Origin: an uncultured Butyrivibrio sp.
Lineage (GTDB): Bacteria; Bacillota; Clostridia; Lachnospirales; Lachnospiraceae
Assembly: GCA_947168935.1 (NCBI GenBank)
Contig: CAMVNV010000020.1
Location: 1-40,974 of the forward strand
Length of the DNA stretch: 40,974 nt
Direction of reading: 5' to 3'
Within the stretch, counting starts at the first letter, position 1. Each line of letters opens with the position of its first letter. The translations under genes were made by a program, and so were the position numbers. This document shows positions 9,819 through 19,994 of the stretch, piece after piece. The notes beneath the pieces are model-generated. The model ran no database searches and had not been told where the DNA came from. It saw only the letters and a program-made list of their open reading frames with translations.

Positions 9819-10742
9819 TCAGGGAATAATCTTAAACAATGCCGTATTCTTATAAGCCAGGGGACTGTCATATGCAAAAGCTATCACACCGTCATGATCT
9901 GCCTTAACTGTCTGTAACACCTGCGCAGTATAAGGGTCTGTAATATAGGCAATGATCTGCCCCTTGTGAACCTCTGCTCCCACCTTTGCAATTGAATCAA
10001 GAAAACCTGCATTACTTGATCTGATGGTTATAAACTTATCACTTTCTACCACCTTCGAGGGAAAAAAAGGAACGCTCTTGTACTCAATAACGCCTTCTCT
10101 TTCAAGGAAGTTAAGTACAGCATTTACGCCAAGGTTAGCGCTCTTTTTATCTATCTTTTCAGTACTTGAAGTATATATAGAAAAAGCTTCTGTATCCCAT
10201 ATCTGCCAGTTGTAATTAAGGGTAGTTGTATCAAAGGGTCTCGGCTTATGAAGAACTATATATGGAAGTCCAAACTTTCTTGCAAGGTCAACATTTTCAT
10301 TGCCTGTCTTCATCATTCTGACCTGGGGGATAAAATGTCCCGGCATATAAAATGATGCAAACTGGATTCCGTACTTATATTCCTTGACCACCTTAAAGAT
10401 TCCATCAGCTATTCTCTGGGTAGTCTCGCCAAGATCGTAGCCTGGGAACATTCTGTTTATGTCCGTATTATCAATGCTCCAGAATCTCTTTTTGATATTT
10501 ACAGAATAGGGATTTGCACAGGGGATCACCATTATGGACTTTCCCTTTTTGATCATCCCTGCTTCTTCTATCTCTTTTAATTTCTCTATAAGACGGCTGC
10601 AGACATATATCTGCTGATATTCATTACCTCTTAGGCTCCCTACAATGCAGACTGTCTTATTGCCCTCACCAAACTCGTATCCTGTAACTTTAAAATCGTC
10701 CCTATATAGCCCCTTAAAAGAGTATATCTCGCTCTTTTTCAT
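9819..10742 (-). CDS. AspA/AstE-type deacylase paralogue with degenerate metal site
   Basis: 307 residues, start preceded by GGGAGAT. The fold is that of succinylglutamate desuccinylase/aspartoacylase (M14-related), as shown by alignment by eye with the neighbouring gene: CIV..R/H-G-N/D-E near residues 32-41, IPCANPYS (73-80), DINRMFPG (94-101) and a C-terminal barrel-sandwich domain (VGAEVHKGQIIAYI...). The first zinc histidine is replaced by Arg38 (SLRGNE instead of GIHGDE), the second by about Ala129, and the catalytic Glu by Tyr. Only Glu41 and the substrate-binding NR pair remain. It is therefore probably not an active hydrolase and may be a substrate-binding or regulatory partner of the intact paralogue. 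It is the last gene of the six-gene operon. Confidence 0.85.
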   Translation of the reverse strand: MKKSEIYSFKGLYRDDFKVTGYEFGEGNKTVCIVGSLRGNEYQQIYVCSRLIEKLKEIEEAGMIKKGKSIMVIPCANPYSVNIKKRFWSIDNTDINRMFPGYDLGETTQRIADGIFKVVKEYKYGIQFASFYMPGHFIPQVRMMKTGNENVDLARKFGLPYIVLHKPRPFDTTTLNYNWQIWDTEAFSIYTSSTEKIDKKSANLGVNAVLNFLEREGVIEYKSVPFFPSKVVESDKFITIRSSNAGFLDSIAKVGAEVHKGQIIAYITDPYTAQVLQTVKADHDGVIAFAYDSPLAYKNTALFKIIP

Positions 10743-10793
10743 AAAGTATCTCCCAAATGATCCGAATTATATTGTTTTCCTAATATCAGAAAA

Positions 10794-11759
10794 CTATTTC
10801 TTATTTTCAAGAAGTACCTTTTTCCTAAGTATCCTTCCCATAAGAGACCCTTCATCAACTATAGGGTACTCTCTTACAGTGAACAAAAGCCCATCTTCAG
10901 GAGCTCTTACATCTTCAAGCACATCTCCTGACAAGGGACTTATTATCCTTCCAACAAGATCGCCTTTTTGAACCAAAGCGCCATACTCTTTTTCCTTAAT
11001 ATAGACTCCGGTACAGGATGCATTCAAAAAGCATACATCCGTTCCATCGCTGTCATGAGCAATGATAGGGCTTTTGATATTATCAACATCCCCCTGCCAG
11101 ATTTCAAGCTCTGACATTAGTGAAAAGATACCGCTAGTCAGCTGTTCTCCATATTCTTTGGTGATCCTCATGCCAACACCCATCTCCACAACGAGGGTTT
11201 TAGTACCTCTGCTGTTAAGCGAATAGGCCATGGTGGATTCTAGAACGGTGCTGTTACCATGGATCCAGACAAGGTCCATATTGGACTTTTGGGCAAGTGG
11301 CACAAGTTCATTAGCACTGACTTCATTGATCCTTATCTGGGGAACCTCTGTCAGGAATATGTTACTTGCGTGGATATCCAGAACGAGGTCTGCCCCTGTC
11401 AGTTCCTTAATGATCTCAGATGCCAGGTACTCGTTCATATCTCCATCAGTATTACCAGGGAAAATCCTGTTCATATCAAGATCAAAAGCAGGTATACCAC
11501 GAGTGATAGAATCTATACCAAAAGGATTCATGGCAGGATAGATATCTACGATTCCTGAAAGCTTGCCTGCTGCCTTTTTGATCTTCCTTGCAACTTCATA
11601 GCATACAAACTGTCCTTCAAGCTCATCACCGTGTATACCTGTGACGATACATATTCTCTTTTTGTTCTTATCTCCCGCTTCAAACCTGTGTCTTTTGATA
11701 AAAAAATCTTCGCCCACAGGAAGGGGAAATCTGACTATATCGCTTATTGTCTCAATCAT
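10794..11759 (-). CDS. Succinylglutamate desuccinylase/aspartoacylase family zinc hydrolase (intact)
   Basis: 321 residues. The metal site is complete: His43 and Glu46 in GIHGDE and His130 in LDIH. Asn97-Arg98 (DMNRIFPG) and Glu192 (VVEMG) fit substrate binding and catalysis as in aspartoacylase. Residues from about 230 form the barrel-sandwich domain (CTGVYIKEKEYGALVQKGDLVGRIISPL). Members remove acyl groups or cleave amide/peptide bonds at the end of small peptides. In this operon, behind an ATP-grasp ligase and a transglutaminase-like protease, it may trim or remove an amide-linked group. It starts 15 bp behind the transglutaminase gene and precedes the degenerate paralogue by 51 bp. No signal peptide, so cytoplasmic. 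Confidence 0.9.
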   Translation of the reverse strand: MIETISDIVRFPLPVGEDFFIKRHRFEAGDKNKKRICIVTGIHGDELEGQFVCYEVARKIKKAAGKLSGIVDIYPAMNPFGIDSITRGIPAFDLDMNRIFPGNTDGDMNEYLASEIIKELTGADLVLDIHASNIFLTEVPQIRINEVSANELVPLAQKSNMDLVWIHGNSTVLESTMAYSLNSRGTKTLVVEMGVGMRITKEYGEQLTSGIFSLMSELEIWQGDVDNIKSPIIAHDSDGTDVCFLNASCTGVYIKEKEYGALVQKGDLVGRIISPLSGDVLEDVRAPEDGLLFTVREYPIVDEGSLMGRILRKKVLLENKK

Positions 11760-11774
11760 AAAAAAGACCTACCC

Positions 11775-12560
11775 TTATATTTCATTAACTATCACTGATA
11801 TCTCCTGGGTCTGCTGTACATTACCTGTAAAGATACCCTGGTTTACAAGGCAGTCCCTGAAGTCTCTACCATTTGAGATCTTGATGTATTCGTCGCCTAC
11901 CATCTTGTTATTGGTAGGGTCAAAACCTATCCACTTCTTGTCATCCCACACTTCAACCCAGGCGTGGGAACGTCCTTCGCCTATCATCATGCCTGTTACA
12001 TATCTGCATGGGATCGACTGCATGCGGCATAGGGACAGCATTATGTGTGAATAATCCTGACATACGCCACATCCCAAGGTAAGAGCTTCTTCTGCAGTAG
12101 TCTCCATTTCAGTACAGCCCTGCTGATAAGTAAAGTTATTATGTAGAAAGGTCATTATCTCAAATGCTTTTTCTTTACTTCCTTTAATATTTTCAAGATC
12201 AATTCTCCTGGCAAATTCCTGTATCTCTTTTCCCGGAGTAGTGATCCTTGTCTGATATCTGAACATTCCCACCATATGAAGGTCTTTGGCATTTTCATAT
12301 TCATTAAGACCAGTCTCAACTTCACCGCATACGTCAAAGCCAAAGCATGTGTGGGTTCCTTTGGTATAGCCAAAAATTGTTATGTTTCCATGGGAATCAG
12401 TGTCTGTTCCCGTTATGTTGTCAGGAAATACCGATACGGATATGCGCCCTACTTTCTGAATATCCGTATCATGAGGTGTGCACTTTAGAGAAAATCTATG
12501 CTCTTTCACTTCTGAGCTGAACGAAAGCTTCATATGATATTCAAAATACAACCTTTTCAA
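11775..12560 (-). CDS. Transglutaminase-like cysteine protease
   Basis: 261 residues. The N-terminal part (LYFEYHMKLSFSSEVKEHRFSL) matches the beta-rich N-terminal region of bacterial transglutaminase-like proteins. The core holds a full Cys-His-Asp triad: Cys in GCGVCQDYSH, His in SHAWVEVW and Asp in GFDPTNN. Such proteins usually act as amide-bond proteases. The start appears to be TTG at 12558-12560, overlapping the TGA of the preceding gene (TTGA), with GGTGG upstream; the next ATG (12533) would cut into the conserved N-terminal strand and lacks a close ribosome site. Together with the alpha-E and ATP-grasp genes it forms the known co-occurring trio of predicted peptide-modification systems. 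Cytoplasmic, no signal peptide. Confidence 0.9.
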   Translation of the reverse strand: MKRLYFEYHMKLSFSSEVKEHRFSLKCTPHDTDIQKVGRISVSVFPDNITGTDTDSHGNITIFGYTKGTHTCFGFDVCGEVETGLNEYENAKDLHMVGMFRYQTRITTPGKEIQEFARRIDLENIKGSKEKAFEIMTFLHNNFTYQQGCTEMETTAEEALTLGCGVCQDYSHIMLSLCRMQSIPCRYVTGMMIGEGRSHAWVEVWDDKKWIGFDPTNNKMVGDEYIKISNGRDFRDCLVNQGIFTGNVQQTQEISVIVNEI

Positions 12561-13231
12561 TTTGTATCAACCACCAATCGCTCTACAGCATCTGTCAACG
12601 TGTCATAAGGAACATCATCGAGCTGAACAAGGTAGTTCACATGTGCAAGCGTCTTCATGCTGTATCTTATTTGACTTTTATCAATCCTGTTTGAAAGTCT
12701 TCTTGCTTCCCGCCTGAGCATATCAGGGTCTTTACCAAGTCTTGAATAAATATCAATTCTTTCGATCAGCTTACCGACTTTGATGATGTTTCTGATCTGC
12801 GACTCATCTATATCATCGTCGGCCATTCCCCAGAAGGCGGCTATATTATCAGTAACCTTCTGAAGTCCAAGTAGTGGTGCATTTGAAAGTGATGCCTGAT
12901 TCATGGCATATACAGCCAGCTGAATATATGAAAGCGACTCACTTCCGATCTCTTCTCTAAGCACTATCGCATTGTCATAAGCCCTCATAAGATTGGAAAA
13001 AATAGAGTTCTCATCTTCAAGGCTAAAGCAGTATTTCTGACTAAAGTCTTCCCTTGATTTATATATATTTGGTATATCCTGACTTTCACAGAACTTGCCA
13101 TACTCGATCTCATCAAAATCGATCATTGAATCGAACCTGTCTGCGAAGATTTTGATAGTGGTATAGACTCTTTCCGTATACCTCCCTAGCCAGAACAGTC
13201 TGTCGGTGTTTTCTATTGAGATAATACCCAT
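12557..13231 (-). CDS. Alpha-E domain protein (DUF403)
   Basis: 224 residues, all-helical. The N-terminal SIENTDRLFWLGRYTERVYTT matches the family hallmark (YWLGRYLER). Alpha-E proteins are commonly 300 residues or more, so this one is short. The family has no proven activity; it accompanies circularly permuted ATP-grasp proteins so often, sometimes fused to them, that it is thought to be a partner of the ligase. It overlaps the preceding gene by 19 bp and the following one by 4 bp, indicating translational coupling. The ribosome site GGAGGAGG lies 12 nt from the ATG, rather far. Confidence 0.88.
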   Translation of the reverse strand: MGIISIENTDRLFWLGRYTERVYTTIKIFADRFDSMIDFDEIEYGKFCESQDIPNIYKSREDFSQKYCFSLEDENSIFSNLMRAYDNAIVLREEIGSESLSYIQLAVYAMNQASLSNAPLLGLQKVTDNIAAFWGMADDDIDESQIRNIIKVGKLIERIDIYSRLGKDPDMLRREARRLSNRIDKSQIRYSMKTLAHVNYLVQLDDVPYDTLTDAVERLVVDTN

Positions 13232-14577
13232 GTATCTTTAAAACCTCCTCCCTGTGAAGAATTAACTATAAATGAATCCGGATTTCTGGAAAATCTTGTA
13301 AGGCCGCTCTTCCATACCATTGGCTCTTCTGCCATAAGTACAAAGGCTCTTAGGTCTGCCTTTCTTGGAACGAATTCTCCTTTTTCCATGATCTCTATAT
13401 CTACAAAGTCTATGACTTCCTGAGCTATGAACCTTCTTGGCTCTTTTTTTAGCATTGCTATGAATCTTGCCTTTTCTTCCCTGGTAAGCTTATTGCCAAA
13501 TACAACGCCGTAGCCGCCTGCTTCAGCAACATCTTTAAGAACAAGATCATCAAAGTGCTCAAGAACGTATTTCATATCATCTTTGTAGAAAGGAAGATAC
13601 GTAGGAGCATTGTTAAGAATAGGTTCTTCTCCAAGATAGTATTTGATCATCTTTGGAACAAAGTAGTAAATTCCCTTATCATCAGCAACTCCGTTACCAG
13701 GCGCATTGATGAGTGCCACATTTCCTTTTCTGTATATATCAAAAATATGAGGGATACCTATAACAGATCCTTCGTTAAAGCTCATTGGATCAAGGTATTC
13801 ATCTGAGATTCTTCTGTATACTGCGCCAACTCTTTCTTTTCTTCCGGAGTAGTCTATGAAATACAGATGGTCGTTTTCTACAATAAGCTCATGACCTGAT
13901 ACAAGATGAGCTCCTGTTTTTTCTGCAAGATAAGAATGTTCAAAGTATGCTGCGTTATATCTGCCAGGCGTAAGGATAACAGTATGACCGCCACAGCTTA
14001 CGTAGTCCATGGTATGACGGAGCATATCTGCATAATTTCTGTTATCTTCAATATGCTTACCTGTAAAAAGAGATGGATCGCTACGCCTTGTAATACTTCT
14101 GGCTATCATTGGATATGATGCTCCTGAAGGAATTCTTAGATTATCCTCAAGTATGTACCAGGTTCCATCCTTACTCTGAACAAGGTCTATTCCTGATATA
14201 TGTGAATAAACTCCCTTTGGAGGTACTATTCCCTCACACTGAGGAAGATACCCGCTTCCTGCATAAATAAACTCTTCAGGGATAACCTCATCTTTAATGA
14301 TCCTCTTATTACCGTAAATATCTGCAATAAAGAGATTCAGCGCCTTAACTCGCTGCTTTAATCCTTTTTCCAGATAGGCAAATTCAACGCTGTCAATGAC
14401 TCTTGGGATCATGTCAAAAGGGAAAAGCTGTTCTTTAAATTCATTATTCTTATAAATACCAAACTTAACACCATACCTTGCCAGCTGTTCGTTGACAACG
14501 TCTGTCCCTGCATACACCTCCATATCTTCTACCCGATCTCTTTTGCCACACATTTCCATGTAACTTATCATACTCAT
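13213..14577 (-). CDS. Circularly permuted ATP-grasp type 2 ligase
   Basis: 454 residues. The signature motifs are visible in order: GIDLVQSKDGTWYILEDN followed by LRIPSGASYPM (about 128-157), NAPGNGVADDKGIYYFVPKM (about 290-310), YLGEEPIL, VLKDVAEAGGYGVVFG (nucleotide-binding strand and glycine loop), ADLRAFVL, and the C-terminal NSSQGGGFKDTWVL. All are close to family consensus, so ATP binding and ligase chemistry are likely intact. ATP-grasp enzymes activate a carboxylate as acyl phosphate and join it to an amine; this branch is predicted to form amide bonds on peptides or proteins, or to make small peptides. The ATG overlaps the TGA of the preceding gene. It sits at the core of the operon. 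Confidence 0.93.
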   Translation of the reverse strand: MSMISYMEMCGKRDRVEDMEVYAGTDVVNEQLARYGVKFGIYKNNEFKEQLFPFDMIPRVIDSVEFAYLEKGLKQRVKALNLFIADIYGNKRIIKDEVIPEEFIYAGSGYLPQCEGIVPPKGVYSHISGIDLVQSKDGTWYILEDNLRIPSGASYPMIARSITRRSDPSLFTGKHIEDNRNYADMLRHTMDYVSCGGHTVILTPGRYNAAYFEHSYLAEKTGAHLVSGHELIVENDHLYFIDYSGRKERVGAVYRRISDEYLDPMSFNEGSVIGIPHIFDIYRKGNVALINAPGNGVADDKGIYYFVPKMIKYYLGEEPILNNAPTYLPFYKDDMKYVLEHFDDLVLKDVAEAGGYGVVFGNKLTREEKARFIAMLKKEPRRFIAQEVIDFVDIEIMEKGEFVPRKADLRAFVLMAEEPMVWKSGLTRFSRNPDSFIVNSSQGGGFKDTWVLSQ

Positions 14578-15851
14578 GCCCCCTTCCTTTTTGGCTTGTC
14601 CCAGTAAAACATATTGTTAAGCTTATGGATGATCTTGTTGCTATCTTCAAGATAGTAGTCCGCCTTGCTACGCTTATCATCACTTAAGCTAACGACTTTA
14701 TTTATTCCATAGTTTTCCTTCAGATAGTCAACCATATTCTCAACAGAGGCATTCTGGTTGTAGATCTTGAGATATGAGTATCCCTTATAGTCATCTGATG
14801 GATATGTGAGAAACTTAAGATCGTGGTCCATGCCAGCTTCCTCAAGTTCTGTTATTAGCCTGTCTATCCTGTCTGTCTTATCAATGCACATCATGTATAC
14901 GACGGGGTGCAGTTTTGGTCTTTCCTTATTCAGGTAATTTCTGTAAGGCGACTTATGCATCTTTTCATAAATATCTTTTTCCGCCATATTCTTAAGGTCC
15001 CTATAGTAGATGATAAGGACATCTTCAAGAATTACCGTTGTAAAGAGGTTAAAGCCTCTTTCGAATATAAAGTCCTCGATGGTCCCTGCGTGGGATGCTG
15101 ATATCACATAAACCTTTGGATATCTGTTCTCACTTGTGTCGTAAAGGATCGCACCGTCCATTGCTATAATGGGAAGTTTTAACTTTACACAGGGCATTGC
15201 TTCGAGAAAGCCTGCCGGTGTTCTCTTGGTCATAAAGGAAAGCTTAATGCCTGATTCAAGCATGTTCTGTATAGATACAAGTCCGTATGGAGTAACTCCT
15301 CCCTGCCTTTTGTCCATGGACTTATCTATATCTACGACAAAGAGATCTTTATCAGCCTTCCTTCCATGTATACGAATTGAATTAATAGTCAGACCTACAA
15401 AAATACCTATAAGTGTATCAAGACACCTGTCTATAACGAACAGATACGGATTTTCATCCGTCAGATGATTGACTACTATACTTAGAAATACAACGCAGGA
15501 AAAATACGAAGCTTTCTTTTGTCTTATTAAAACCGTGGTATATATAATTGGTATAAGAAGGGCTGATATAACAAAATAATGAAGGATGCCATTTCCTGTA
15601 TGGAACAGATTTAATTTAAAAAGAAGATACAAAAGTCCATATACAGCCCCGATCAAGGTTCCTATGGTCCTCTGGATGGCATTGCCCACTGTGTTCTTGG
15701 TCTGGTTCTGAATGCACCAAAGAACTGCAAGAGCCGAATAAAACGGAGCTCCGTGCCTGCCGCGTATAAGATATATGAGAAAACATATCAAAACGCCAAC
15801 CGCTGATTTAATTATTCTCATCCCAATATGCGGAAGTTTTGTTTTTCCCAT
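14574..15851 (-). CDS. FUSC-like membrane domain fused to HAD hydrolase
   Basis: 425 residues. Residues 10-160 hold five or six membrane helices with FUSC/aromatic-acid-exporter features (an early RGRHGAPFYSALAVLWCIQNQTKNTVGNAIQRTIGTLIGAVYG-like block, 31-72). From about 168 a Cof-type HAD phosphatase follows: motif I VVDIDKS with Asp174 and Asp176, motif II Thr208 (FMTKR), an IIAMDGAILYD block as in Cof proteins, and a late acidic motif SLSDDKRSKAD. Lys in place of the Gly after the second Asp is atypical, yet both aspartates are present. FUSC proteins export small aromatic or acidic compounds; a fused phosphatase may couple dephosphorylation to export. It is the first gene of the six-gene operon, suggesting that a product is made or processed here and moved across the membrane. 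Confidence 0.85.
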   Translation of the reverse strand: MGKTKLPHIGMRIIKSAVGVLICFLIYLIRGRHGAPFYSALAVLWCIQNQTKNTVGNAIQRTIGTLIGAVYGLLYLLFKLNLFHTGNGILHYFVISALLIPIIYTTVLIRQKKASYFSCVVFLSIVVNHLTDENPYLFVIDRCLDTLIGIFVGLTINSIRIHGRKADKDLFVVDIDKSMDKRQGGVTPYGLVSIQNMLESGIKLSFMTKRTPAGFLEAMPCVKLKLPIIAMDGAILYDTSENRYPKVYVISASHAGTIEDFIFERGFNLFTTVILEDVLIIYYRDLKNMAEKDIYEKMHKSPYRNYLNKERPKLHPVVYMMCIDKTDRIDRLITELEEAGMDHDLKFLTYPSDDYKGYSYLKIYNQNASVENMVDYLKENYGINKVVSLSDDKRSKADYYLEDSNKIIHKLNNMFYWDKPKRKGA

Positions 15852-16021: not shown

Positions 16022-16067
16022 AAAAAAAGAGGATGCATTGAATCGGTGCCTGATTCAAAACATCCTC
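16022..16067 (-). terminator. Intrinsic terminator behind the RelA/SpoT-like gene
   Basis: Outer stem GAGGATG/CATCCTC and inner stem GAATC/GATTC, followed on the minus strand by seven T residues (16022-16028). It lies 117 bp past the stop codon at 16184. Confidence 0.8.
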
Positions 16068-16183
16068 GTTTGTTTAAGTATAGCTAAAGAACATATATTT
16101 TTACAATATGGGATTTTTCACAATTTTCATTGATGCATATTAATAAAAGTTCATGTTTTTGACTATTATTATATGGCGTGATA

Positions 16184-17173
16184 TTAATCAATAACATCCG
16201 TATGAAACCTTGATAAATGCTCAAAAGGAAGGATCAATCGTCCTCTGTATAGGCCGCATCCGTCATTAATAAGGCTGTTATTTACTGCTCCAAACATGTT
16301 TACATCTACTTTGGAAAGGTCTAGCCCCTTTAAGAGAACGCCTCTTTTATAGGCTTCATCAAAGAATATGCACTTGCCTTCAGGAATATCTGACCTTGTG
16401 GTTCGCTCCTCTAGCTGACTCTTTTCATATACAGCATGATTGGCTGTTCCTATCTCAGCATAGTCATCCATCTCTTTAGTTCTGATCTGGACTTCTATGT
16501 AGCTTCTGCTCTCGTTATCAAAAAAGGTGATATGAAGAGACTTATAGCCGTACTTATTAGGACACTCAATATAATCCCTGTAATATGGCACTACCTTTGG
16601 ATTTAAAAGCTTTGAAGATGGATTCTTCATATCATTTGATACTTCTGCAGTAAAGCCCCTTTGCTCAAGGAAAGCAGGAAGGGCATTTGCTATCTCATAA
16701 ATAAATTTAAGCTCTTCTTCGTACCTGTCAGTTCCTTCATCAACATGCCACTTTGGAAGGGATACAACTATCCTGTAGGCGATGAGATCTCTAAAGTGCC
16801 TGCTTCGCTGCTTCATTTCTATTTCATCAGGGAATTTACCAGTTTCTTTGTAATAGTCAGTAACTTCCTCGACTATATATCCGTTGAATTTCTGCTCAGC
16901 TCTTATAAGGGACTTGATCCTTCCTTTAAAAGTGAAGGCAAGAAATGGATACTGCACTGTCATATACTTATAGAATTCTTTGATCCTTTGTGACTGGGAT
17001 GTGAGGAATTCGTTGTGCTCCAAGATTTCTTCAAGTTGCAGAAGAAAATTGCAGTGAGCTATATCTATGCTGTTACCGGATTCTATGGCGGATTTTTTAA
17101 GGTCGTGGGAATACTTTTGTATTATCTTAAGGACTGTATCCCCATTATATAAATAATCGTTTAATGATATCAT
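16184..17173 (-). CDS. RelA/SpoT-type nucleotide pyrophosphokinase domain protein
   Basis: 329 residues. The synthetase fold is evident: FKGRIKSLIRAEQKF (82-96, as RxKS), RDLIAYRIV (128-136), NKYGYKSLHITF (206-217, G-loop with Tyr210) and YIEVQIRTKEMDDYAEIGTANHAVYE (225-250). These match the ppGpp synthetase motifs, with Asp where most have His in the MHxxAE block. There is no HD hydrolase, TGS or ACT domain, so it is a synthetase-only protein, longer than classical small alarmone synthetases. It may make (p)ppGpp or transfer pyrophosphate to another acceptor. It begins 36 bp behind a PPDK-like gene and is preceded by AAAGGAGGAG. The operon pairing suggests a joint role. Activity is likely, substrate uncertain. 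Confidence 0.88.
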   Translation of the reverse strand: MISLNDYLYNGDTVLKIIQKYSHDLKKSAIESGNSIDIAHCNFLLQLEEILEHNEFLTSQSQRIKEFYKYMTVQYPFLAFTFKGRIKSLIRAEQKFNGYIVEEVTDYYKETGKFPDEIEMKQRSRHFRDLIAYRIVVSLPKWHVDEGTDRYEEELKFIYEIANALPAFLEQRGFTAEVSNDMKNPSSKLLNPKVVPYYRDYIECPNKYGYKSLHITFFDNESRSYIEVQIRTKEMDDYAEIGTANHAVYEKSQLEERTTRSDIPEGKCIFFDEAYKRGVLLKGLDLSKVDVNMFGAVNNSLINDGCGLYRGRLILPFEHLSRFHTDVID

Positions 17174-17209: not shown

Positions 17210-19765
17210 TCATGTATCAATTGCTTTATAGCATATTACATGTTCGTCTTTCATGTCGTTGCATAAGTAAAAGTTATTATCTGAAACATCAAATATGCGT
17301 ACAATGCCATCATCCATGATCTTTGAATCTTTAAGGAGATCCGGATTATAAACCAGGGTCTTATCGTTTTCAAAAATGGCATTATAGAGTATCCCTGATT
17401 CAACAAGGTCCTGGAAGAAGTGGCTTCCATAGGATAGCTCTGGATTATATCCGGCTCTTGAATCTGATATCTCGCAGATTGCGTCAAACTCGCTTATATC
17501 AGAAAAAGTTGTGGGTACTCCAAGTTCAGGGGATGATGTTCCAATTCTGCCGGGTGCCATAAGGACCATGTGCTTTCCTGTATTTCTCATCTTCCAGTTG
17601 AATCCGCCTATTACTCCTGCCACCTTGTACTTGTCCTGATATGGCATGTTGTAGTATTTAACAGGATCTACGTATACTATAGTGTCGAGTTTAATATTCC
17701 TTGACATACCCATAGCTGAACCTTTGCATTCAAATAGTATATTTTCTTTTTCTATGTTATCAGGCACAGTCATATCTACAGAATCTGCAAATACCTGCAG
17801 AGGCCTGCACTGAAGCATGTTTATGACATAGTCACCGTTTTCCGAAAGGTTAATGGTAAACTCAGTGTCTACTGGATAGTCATATTCTTTTTGTATAGTT
17901 TTTAAAATATTCTGAAGGTCCTTCATGAGGCCTTCTTTTCTTACAAGTCCCTGACATGAGATAAACTCTATATCTCGGTCCTGGCCCCTGTCTCTAAACA
18001 TTCTCTCAGCCTCAAAGTCGTGCTCTAAAAGTAGTCTTTTTAGATATGCCGGAAGAAGCTTATAGACTTTATCAAGGTCTACCTGCATGAGCTTTCTTTC
18101 AGCCCTGTTAATTAGTTCGAGCTTCTTCTGAGAATACTGGTGCTTTTCTGCCGAGTTGTTAAAAGAGGTTGCTGTAGGGTCAGAAAGACTTACTAGTCTT
18201 GGATAAGAGCCTTCCGTTCTGTCAACAGCTGATGTTCCAAGGCCCATTACTAGTCGCAGCATTCCAGCTTCCTGGTCAAGTGACTCCATAAACTTATATG
18301 GACTATAGGAATAGCCAACACCTGCTGCGCAGGGCATATAGTACTCTCCATAGTATGATCCGGAAACTCTCTGAACCAGAAGTGCCATCTGCTCATCTCT
18401 TGCCTGAAGACCGCGCCTACTTCTATAGTCAAGAGCTGACCTACTCATAGTGCTGGCATAAACTGTTCTTATGGCAATTTCAAATTCAAGAAGTCTTTGG
18501 TCCATGCTGCCTGAATTTGAACAGAAAACTGATTCGTATTTTCCCGCAAAGGCATTACCAAAACCGTCCTCAAGAATAGAACTTGACCTGACGATTATAG
18601 GGTCCTGTCCGTAATACTCAAGGAGCCTTACAAACTGCTCTTCCATGTCTCTTGAAAACTCGCCCTCATGGAGCTTTTCTGCAAACTCATCGGCTAGTGA
18701 GAAGAACTCCTCCTCGCTCCTTTGCCTTATACGAAGATCCCAGAATTTGTTCTTAACAATAAAGGAATAAAAGACGTCAGACCCTATGTAAAAAGAGTCA
18801 TGGGGCTCAAGTCTTTCATAAATATCAGGCTCTCTGTTTTCTATGATCTTTCTTGCAAGGAGCATTCCGCAGGCTTTACCGCCGATCATACCTGTACCGA
18901 TCATCCTGTTCTTAACTGCAAAGTAGTCTTCAGGAGTGAAGTTCCTCTTGATCATCTGGCGCATCTTCTCATCACGGGTCATCATGATGTTACACATACG
19001 GTTGCAGCTATCAGTAACGTCGTAGCCATTCTCATACATCATCTTGGTCTGGGCAAAAAATCTATCCCAGCTATCCATGTTCTCCGTATCAGAAGACTCA
19101 GCATCCTTAGCAAGAATCTGATAAAAGTGACTTGCCATAACACCGTCAAGGATCGGCTTAAAAGTACCATTTTCAGGCTCATACAGATGAGGCAGGAACA
19201 TAGTTTCAGAATATCTGTTCCAGACTTTGTCAGGGCGCACATAGATCCTCTTTTTATCAGAATATGCATCCAAAAATAGCTGCGTCGTATCTCTTATCTT
19301 GGCGATTGCCTGGAATGAATGCTTACCCCTTATAAGTGGGAAGAAAGCTACAGTATCAAGCACGAAAAGATATGGACAGGTTACCTGGAAAAAGTTACCC
19401 ATCATAAGATCAGTTGCCCATGCAGTCTGAAGTTCAGAAAGGCAGTCAAATACGTAGAAAGCTTCTCGGCCCTCTTTTCTTATGATCTCGTGTATCTCAA
19501 CAGTAAAGTTCTCAAACCTGTGGGATAGCTCGACGTTAACGATCTTTAAGCCTTCCTGCTCTGTAAAAAGAGGCTCGTGAGAAGCAAACCTAATATAGAT
19601 AAGATTCCTCTTATCCTTGATAGCCTGGTTAACATAGGGAGTTGCAAACTGCTTGAAGTCTTCAAGGCTGTCAACTCTCCAAACAACGTTGTCACCAAGC
19701 CTTATATTGTCAATTTTCTCATCCATCTGAGGTATTCCTGATAAGACCCTGTCAAAAGCAGCCAT
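17210..19765 (-). CDS. PPDK/PEP-synthase-type ATP-grasp protein with KaiC-like N-terminal domain
   Basis: The start at 19765 (MAAFDRVLSG) is preceded by AAAGGAGGCTAT; the frame runs 69 codons further up but without a ribosome site. 851 residues. Residues 1-170 look like a KaiC/RecA-type domain (LSGIPQMDEKIDNIRLGDNVVW, then a Walker-B-like FYVFD at 103-107), but the Walker A lysine loop is missing. From about 290 comes the PEP/pyruvate-binding ATP-grasp domain: GTGMIGGKACGMLLARKI (291-306) and IVRSSSILEDGFGNAFAGKYES (391-412), ending in NMLQCRPLQ (about 670). The phosphohistidine domain of true PPDK/PpsA is not recognisable and the PEP-binding barrel is absent. It probably phosphorylates something from ATP, or serves as a sensor; its neighbour is a RelA/SpoT-like protein. 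Confidence 0.85.
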   Translation of the reverse strand: MAAFDRVLSGIPQMDEKIDNIRLGDNVVWRVDSLEDFKQFATPYVNQAIKDKRNLIYIRFASHEPLFTEQEGLKIVNVELSHRFENFTVEIHEIIRKEGREAFYVFDCLSELQTAWATDLMMGNFFQVTCPYLFVLDTVAFFPLIRGKHSFQAIAKIRDTTQLFLDAYSDKKRIYVRPDKVWNRYSETMFLPHLYEPENGTFKPILDGVMASHFYQILAKDAESSDTENMDSWDRFFAQTKMMYENGYDVTDSCNRMCNIMMTRDEKMRQMIKRNFTPEDYFAVKNRMIGTGMIGGKACGMLLARKIIENREPDIYERLEPHDSFYIGSDVFYSFIVKNKFWDLRIRQRSEEEFFSLADEFAEKLHEGEFSRDMEEQFVRLLEYYGQDPIIVRSSSILEDGFGNAFAGKYESVFCSNSGSMDQRLLEFEIAIRTVYASTMSRSALDYRSRRGLQARDEQMALLVQRVSGSYYGEYYMPCAAGVGYSYSPYKFMESLDQEAGMLRLVMGLGTSAVDRTEGSYPRLVSLSDPTATSFNNSAEKHQYSQKKLELINRAERKLMQVDLDKVYKLLPAYLKRLLLEHDFEAERMFRDRGQDRDIEFISCQGLVRKEGLMKDLQNILKTIQKEYDYPVDTEFTINLSENGDYVINMLQCRPLQVFADSVDMTVPDNIEKENILFECKGSAMGMSRNIKLDTIVYVDPVKYYNMPYQDKYKVAGVIGGFNWKMRNTGKHMVLMAPGRIGTSSPELGVPTTFSDISEFDAICEISDSRAGYNPELSYGSHFFQDLVESGILYNAIFENDKTLVYNPDLLKDSKIMDDGIVRIFDVSDNNFYLCNDMKDEHVICYKAIDT

Positions 19766-19861
19766 ATAGCCTCCTTTATGTACCAAGTTTTGATCAAAAT
19801 GTTCCAAAACCAATACAGAACAAATATGAATTAACTTCCTACACAAAAAATCCATAAATAG

Positions 19862-19897
19862 AAAAAAGGCGCACAGCAATAATGCTGAAACGCCTTT
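19862..19897 (-). terminator. Intrinsic terminator behind the GH35 gene
   Basis: Stem AAAGGCG/CGCCTTT with inner CAGCA/TGCTG, followed on the minus strand by a T-run (19862-19867). It separates the beta-galactosidase gene from the PPDK-like gene. Confidence 0.8.
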
Positions 19898-19994
19898 GTT
19901 TTCTATTCTTATTGTATCAAATTCAATGAGATTAATAAATCTTTGATCTACATGATCTTCATGTTTTTTCAAAACTTCTTAATCCAAAACGGCT

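Follow-up and report, generated by a model that had tools for sequence, protein, structure and literature searches.

The genes described here lie in a 40,974-nt stretch of DNA from an uncultured Butyrivibrio sp. (contig CAMVNV010000020.1 of assembly GCA_947168935.1, forward strand), which is referred to below as the window. Six genes follow one another on its minus strand, encoding a FUSC-HAD protein, a circularly permuted (CP) ATP-grasp ligase, an alpha-E protein, a transglutaminase-like enzyme and two AspA/AstE-fold proteins, named here AspA and AspB (Table 1). The first four genes overlap by 4, 19 and 4 bp, and gaps of 15 and 51 bp precede the last two. The positions and overlaps given in an initial annotation of the sequence agree with the open reading frames, and the main family assignments of all six genes exceed the Pfam cut-offs. 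The ATP-grasp/alpha-E/transglutaminase trio which that annotation had recognized is real, and all three adjacent genes give Pfam matches. We found that the conserved unit consists of the five genes from ATP-grasp to AspB, with FUSC-HAD as only an occasional neighbor.

Table 1. Genes and features at the operon and directly upstream of it (positions in the window).
Feature	Position	Strand	Remarks
FUSC-HAD	14574-15851	minus	Pfam FUSC_2, ArAE_1, Hydrolase_3; N-terminal membrane half; variable accessory gene
ATP-grasp ligase, circularly permuted (core gene 1)	13213-14577	minus	Pfam CP_ATPgrasp_2, E 4e-136
alpha-E, short form, 224 aa (core gene 2)	12557-13231	minus	Pfam Alpha-E, E 2e-16
Transglutaminase-like cysteine enzyme (core gene 3)	11775-12560	minus	TTG start; Pfam Transglut_core, E 1e-22
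AspA, predicted AspA/AstE-type zinc deacylase (core gene 4)	10794-11759	minus	Pfam AstE_AspA_cat, E 3e-24
AspB, predicted AspA/AstE-fold pseudoenzyme (core gene 5)	9819-10742	minus	Pfam AstE_AspA_cat, E 2e-13
Terminator-like hairpin	16025-16070	minus	5' of FUSC-HAD; -21 kcal/mol, z -5.7
RelA/SpoT-synthetase-like gene, occasional neighbor	16184-17173	minus	RelA_SpoT, E 2e-13
PPDK_N-domain protein, occasional neighbor	17210-19972	minus	PPDK_N, E 1e-44

Relatives of AspB in named genomes amounted to at least 583 confirmed stretches, the best 80 of which were retained for locus counts. In 72 of these 80, the order ATP-grasp, alpha-E, transglutaminase, AspA, AspB is kept on one strand within 6.5 kb; the genes are thus not confined to the strain in which they were noticed, whereas such confinement would have refuted the proposal of the initial annotation. 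The other eight comprise five loci that start near a contig end (L146, L179, L186, L193 and L194), two deletion forms (L151 and L163) and one, L134, with its genes spread out. This five-gene order recurs in the clostridial families f4, f13, f44 and f61, as well as in f101 and f122. In f122 the ATP-grasp identity is 40-41% and the pair also follows the trio; all five core genes of the f122 locus L250 are confirmed by Pfam. Among the matches listed, the closest relative of AspB (80% identity) belongs to locus L129, labelled uncultured Butyrivibrio, and Pseudobutyrivibrio records come next. Three other genomes of the window's genus, present in the class-wide sample, lack both an AspB and an ATP-grasp family match, so the system is patchy. 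Split genes were also seen in some relatives, mostly frameshift-like or at contig ends.

Co-occurrence was counted across 200 genomes from the family to which the window belongs, its own genome among them; this sample overlaps with the 80 named loci and the two sets of counts were kept unsummed. AspA and AspB were scored by strong matches only (E < about 1e-70, weaker AspA-like paralogues excluded), and 7 of the 32 ATP-grasp matches, being partial genes or scars, were not scored as intact (G019, G025, G037, G083, G094, G124 and G169; that of G037 was excluded because an inner part of the gene is missing). An intact trio, a class that includes genomes split between contigs (G076, G114 and G188), was present in 25 of the 200 genomes. 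AspB accompanied it in all 25, compared with 6.4 expected (p = 5e-18); the family p values ignore relatedness, which makes this one too small. In 23 of the 25 the ATP-grasp gene and the pair share a contig, and in G076 and G114 they are on separate ones. The AspA-like pair as a whole was present in all 25 genomes, and its co-variation with the trio, for which the initial annotation had suggested a check, is supported. Wider samples of the class (245 genomes) and the phylum (348 genomes), which have G000, G200 and G340 in common, gave five and nine full-length ATP-grasp genes, respectively. AspA and AspB adjoin the trio in all five of the former, and an AspA-type pair adjoins it in six of the latter nine; in the remaining three of these phylum-sample genomes no such pair was found near the trio.

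AspA carries the HxxE...H zinc site and the catalytic Glu of its family: each of the 25 sequences linked to a trio has H43, E46, H130 and E192 together. The situation of AspB is different. Across 145 aligned rows (139 distinct sequences, hence not independent), the site of the first zinc His of AspA is invariably occupied by R38, position 128 is F, L or Y, leaving no second zinc His in any row, and position 189 is I, L, V, F or M, so that no row has the catalytic Glu. Its fold is nevertheless of the AspA/AstE type, with DoeB and CphZ among the fold matches. Judged by these residues, AspB is a catalytically dead protein encoded beside an intact AspA, i.e., the two are a predicted enzyme and pseudoenzyme. 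The initial annotation had read them as a pair of M14-related deacylases, two amide hydrolases, and this reading was rejected on the AspB residues. In f122, the AspB orthologues (L247:2987-3970 and L250:11576-12565) keep the zinc ligands and have Met in place of the catalytic Glu; by their residues, they represent a predicted intermediate stage in the evolution of the pseudoenzyme. In the accompanying tree, rows longer than 345 aa were trimmed N-terminally and outgroup rows were cut to the matched part.

The two genes are nearly inseparable: by strong matches in the family sample, every genome with AspA also had AspB (49 of 49), and AspB stood without AspA in 2 of 51 genomes. We also fetched 28 loci (5.6-18 kb, mostly shorter than the full-flank named loci) that hold the pair without trio genes. 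There, AspA residue 43 is His in 23 loci and this zinc ligand is lost in five. A purL gene is present in 18 of the 28 (within L064-L093), mostly directly behind AspB, and FUSC-HAD, the importer set described below, and the RelA-like, cytidylate-kinase-like and PPDK_N genes were found in none of the 28.

As for the trio proteins, residue counts were made on near full-length rows only, and these rows are not independent. The transglutaminase-like enzyme has C167, H199 and D214, which we take to be the Cys-His-Asp catalytic triad, in 106 of 106 rows, and the alpha-E motifs E20-R21 and E157-R158 are kept in 98 of 98. The AlphaFold2 model of alpha-E is all-helical (predicted local distance difference test score, pLDDT, 89); Foldseek gave no match for it at E 0.001, and its VIA rows were helical bundles that stayed below about 13, the level under which the tool advises caution with helical models. 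The ATP-grasp protein has a solved relative, 3n6x (E 4e-110). At one locus of the same phylum (L251:5561-7462), alpha-E and transglutaminase are fused into one protein, and no AspA pair is nearby.

Traces of loss are visible in several relatives. At L060:8700-9065 an internal deletion has joined the first part of the ATP-grasp gene in frame to the last part of AspB, at L061:8231-8518 a short remnant of the ATP-grasp start lies beside an AspB remnant, and in L057 and L058 inner stretches are missing; loss has thus occurred by internal deletion. In turn, 118 genomes were drawn from the family to which the genome of the Treponema-labelled locus L134 belongs, and AspB was detected in 4 of them: L134's own genome, G507, and two genomes (G544 and G548) in which the stretch seen holds the pair alone. 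In G507 a core whose ATP-grasp gene is cut by the contig start is followed by FUSC-HAD, and in G544 and G548 (L228 and L229) AspA has Asp for the catalytic Glu. The genome behind L134 (G442; L218:5390-14884 and L219:64-1368) keeps the core order and strand, and three of the four gaps within its core span roughly 1.9-5.2 kb, which gives the impression of inserted DNA. With species labels taken as recorded, the presence of AspB in this family is consistent with a putative lateral transfer.

The FUSC-HAD gene seems to be a loose companion of this core. A terminator-like hairpin separates it from the RelA-like gene, which makes FUSC-HAD plausibly the first gene of the transcript and a single transcript possible for all six genes; a simple terminator scan did not list this hairpin among its terminators. 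The gene is found in the same place in L129, and it is elsewhere or absent in other relatives. Matches in the fetched flank were obtained in 9 of the 80 loci, five near full length and four to the FUSC half alone (L130:11986-12447, L131:11985-12446, L136:9073-9549 and L147:1446-1919, all without HAD near the core), so that the HAD part is dispensable and the halves can separate. It precedes the core in some relatives and follows it in others, which suggests repeated joining. When presence was scored by matches across both domains in the family sample, FUSC-HAD and an intact trio were found together in 10 of 200 genomes (3.1 expected, p = 1.5e-4), and FUSC-HAD with a trio-less AspB in 1 of 200 (3.3 expected). 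Only in four of these ten genomes (G000, G060, G135 and G190) does FUSC-HAD lie within 10 kb of the trio; the others have them at larger distances or on separate contigs. The motif I position of the HAD half, presumably the nucleophile, is Asp in 4 of 20 homologues (window included), Gly in 15 and Asn in one, and the second Asp and the motif II Thr, whose role we likewise assume, are kept in all 20. The loss in 16 homologues makes the name phosphatase doubtful. Thus, of the earlier statement that a membrane protein with phosphatase heads the operon, the leading position stands in the window and the phosphatase part is questionable, and an exporter/phosphatase as the defining part of the system was rejected on the flank counts together with the loss of the nucleophile.

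Other neighbors also vary. An amino-acid ATP-binding cassette importer (SBP_bac_3, two permeases and an ATPase) is found in the flank of 8 of the 80 loci, a cytidylate-kinase-like gene in 9, a RelA-like gene in 6, one of which is truncated at a contig end, and a PPDK_N match in 5, with three close to full length. Together with FUSC-HAD these make five accessory sets, of which 21 of the 80 loci have one or more; only 35 of the 80 loci exceed 18 kb. The RelA-like gene also lies near the core in G340 and G398, from two other clostridial families; it was rejected as a general partner, as 5 of its 24 carriers have an intact trio (p = 0.16). None of the six genes had a match in PADLOC and the RelA-like gene had a single match that was short and weak, hence no defence assignment is made.

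Anbu, a peptidase whose absence had been remarked upon in the initial annotation, was not found here either: a proteasome-family match (E 0.001) was not found in the window genome, which is 81% complete, nor in 27 of the 29 other ATP-grasp-carrying genomes searched (28 of 30 with the window genome). The two exceptions, G200 and G340, have proteasome-family matches on contigs other than that of the operon, comprising one 184-aa frame, presumably HslV-like in length, and one match below the cut-off. The operon is therefore not of the Anbu type in the strict sense, with no Anbu found in or near it.

Starting from the observed gene order, the co-variation and the residues of AspA, AspB and the transglutaminase-like enzyme, we infer every reaction in the scheme that follows. 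The explanation we prefer, tentatively and at somewhat less than an even chance, is that this five-gene, Anbu-less variant of the trio makes and cleaves a small polar amino-acid compound with an amide or isopeptide bond, for which AspA-AspB would be the hydrolase arm. The ATP-grasp enzyme would join a carboxylate to an amine at the expense of ATP, alpha-E may act as its partner or hold the substrate, and the transglutaminase-like enzyme would cleave or transfer the bond made by ATP-grasp. AspA, as a putative zinc amide hydrolase, would split the final small N-acyl or isopeptide (e.g., beta-aspartyl) amino-acid unit. AspB, in which the fold and fixed pocket residues are kept and the zinc site and base are lost, would bind AspA as a non-catalytic subunit and might shape, gate or sense the substrate. 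The compound would most likely be a polar amino-acid conjugate, made or recovered according to amino-acid or nitrogen supply. This class of compound is favored because of the kinship with DoeB, the nitrogen regulation of the trio elsewhere and the importer found beside the core in a minority of loci.

Several observations weigh against this explanation. Of the 200 family genomes, 26 have AspB but lack an intact trio, so the substrate of the pair may differ from the trio product; a contig break accounts for some of these cases (G129) and deletion for others (G037 and G124). That the AspA-like and FUSC-HAD genes might be found apart from the trio had been foreseen as a refutation, and it holds in part, for AspB in these genomes and for FUSC-HAD, which is often elsewhere. 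AspA is distant from DoeB, and the bacteria in which nitrogen regulation was reported are remote from these, with Anbu present in one of them at least. A substrate for any trio member was not found in the literature, as far as the excerpts consulted extend. In addition, 59 of the 80 loci have none of the five accessory sets in the fetched flank, many flanks being short, so that the importer link rests on a minority of loci, some of them closely related.

Among the other explanations, protein tagging has been proposed for the Anbu operon, according to the excerpts of PMC6376114. The ATP-grasp enzyme would put an amino acid or small peptide on proteins, the transglutaminase-like enzyme and AspA would remove or trim it, and AspB would recognize the tag. 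A core of one ligase-type and two amide-cleaving-type enzymes agrees with such a cycle; yet DoeB and CphZ, the relatives of solved structure whose substrates are named, use dipeptides or small N-acyl amino acids. Anbu, moreover, was not found, and we regard tagging as unlikely. Pure scavenging, that is uptake and dismantling of amide-linked amino-acid compounds of other organisms with ATP-grasp re-ligating or activating a breakdown product, would account for the importer set and for induction of the trio under poor nitrogen in other bacteria: available passages report it to be NtrC-dependent in Burkholderia cenocepacia (PMC5491218) and higher on nitrate than on ammonium in Pseudomonas putida (PMC8050072), and it is associated with urea-metabolism domains in marine metagenomes in the text seen of PMC3597751. 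However, identity is highest for the ATP-consuming ligase among the members, a feature in better agreement with synthesis, and we rate scavenging alone as rather unlikely.

The scheme of the initial annotation, in which a ligase product is trimmed by two amide hydrolases and then dephosphorylated and exported by FUSC-HAD, draws on the 4-bp overlap between FUSC-HAD and ATP-grasp, on the joint occurrence of FUSC-HAD with intact trios and on the HAD residues (motif I Asp in the window, the second Asp and Thr throughout). Its improbability follows from the AspB residues, which are not those of a hydrolase, from the few full-length or partial FUSC-HAD genes in the flanks and from the Gly or Asn that replaces the nucleophile in most homologues. 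A mere co-inheritance of functionally unlinked neighbors would agree with most of the 80 relatives being labelled as one family or near it, since such loci share ancestry, but the recurrence of the five-gene order in the six families named above, including f122 with its divergent ATP-grasp, and losses that in some cases take out several core genes together make it highly improbable. A bolder form of the small-compound explanation is quite unlikely as it stands: AspA-AspB would be an amidase made of an enzyme and a pseudoenzyme that stands in for the proteasome-like Anbu, completing in gut Clostridia the make/break cycle of an undescribed isopeptide-type nitrogen-reserve or signalling compound, with AspB as sensor. 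If true, this would also make the pair a candidate for an activity that the excerpt of PMC10206079 calls undiscovered in Firmicutes, isoaspartyl dipeptidase.

The ATP-grasp/alpha-E/transglutaminase (Anbu-type) operon was described by Iyer et al. (2009), as cited in the excerpts of PMC5666114 and PMC6376114, and the sections of the Anbu literature consulted give no confirmed role for the trio. The operon in the window shares with it the type 2 CP ATP-grasp, alpha-E and transglutaminase genes, with the ER motifs and the triad conserved. It differs in that no Anbu was found and the AspA-AspB pair stands instead, and in its short alpha-E (224 aa vs. a model of 294 positions). The best curated model for AspA is DoeB, N-acetyl-diaminobutyrate deacetylase, with a score far under the cut-off. 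Solved structures related to AspA come from the AspA/AstE family, with DoeB (6twm), 3cdx, 2qj8 and 3na6 among them; these are distant in sequence. In contrast to DoeB-type deacylases, AspB lacks the two zinc His and the catalytic Glu, and the pairing is near-constant here. CphZ (8ein and 8eip), a cyanophycin dipeptide hydrolase for beta-Asp-Arg, belongs to the same fold family as AspB; AspA matches it by profile in the C-terminal part, and the catalytic part of AspA has no sequence match to it. Similarly, FUSC-HAD shares with the FUSC/ArAE aromatic acid exporters the N-terminal membrane half, above the Pfam cut-off, and differs by its C-terminal HAD. A search of the literature, limited to partial texts and not covering Iyer et al. 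(2009), which may mention an AspA-type association, found no AspA-AspB pair with a dead subunit beside an Anbu-less trio. Instead of Anbu, the gut variant has a predicted hydrolase whose family is known to act on small molecules, which narrows the possible products and offers a direct assay, and a deacylase with a dead sister, together with the predicted intermediate stage in another bacterial family, would be a clean case of stepwise pseudoenzyme evolution. The trio itself is known; what appears new is AspA-AspB with its predicted dead subunit in the Anbu-less form.

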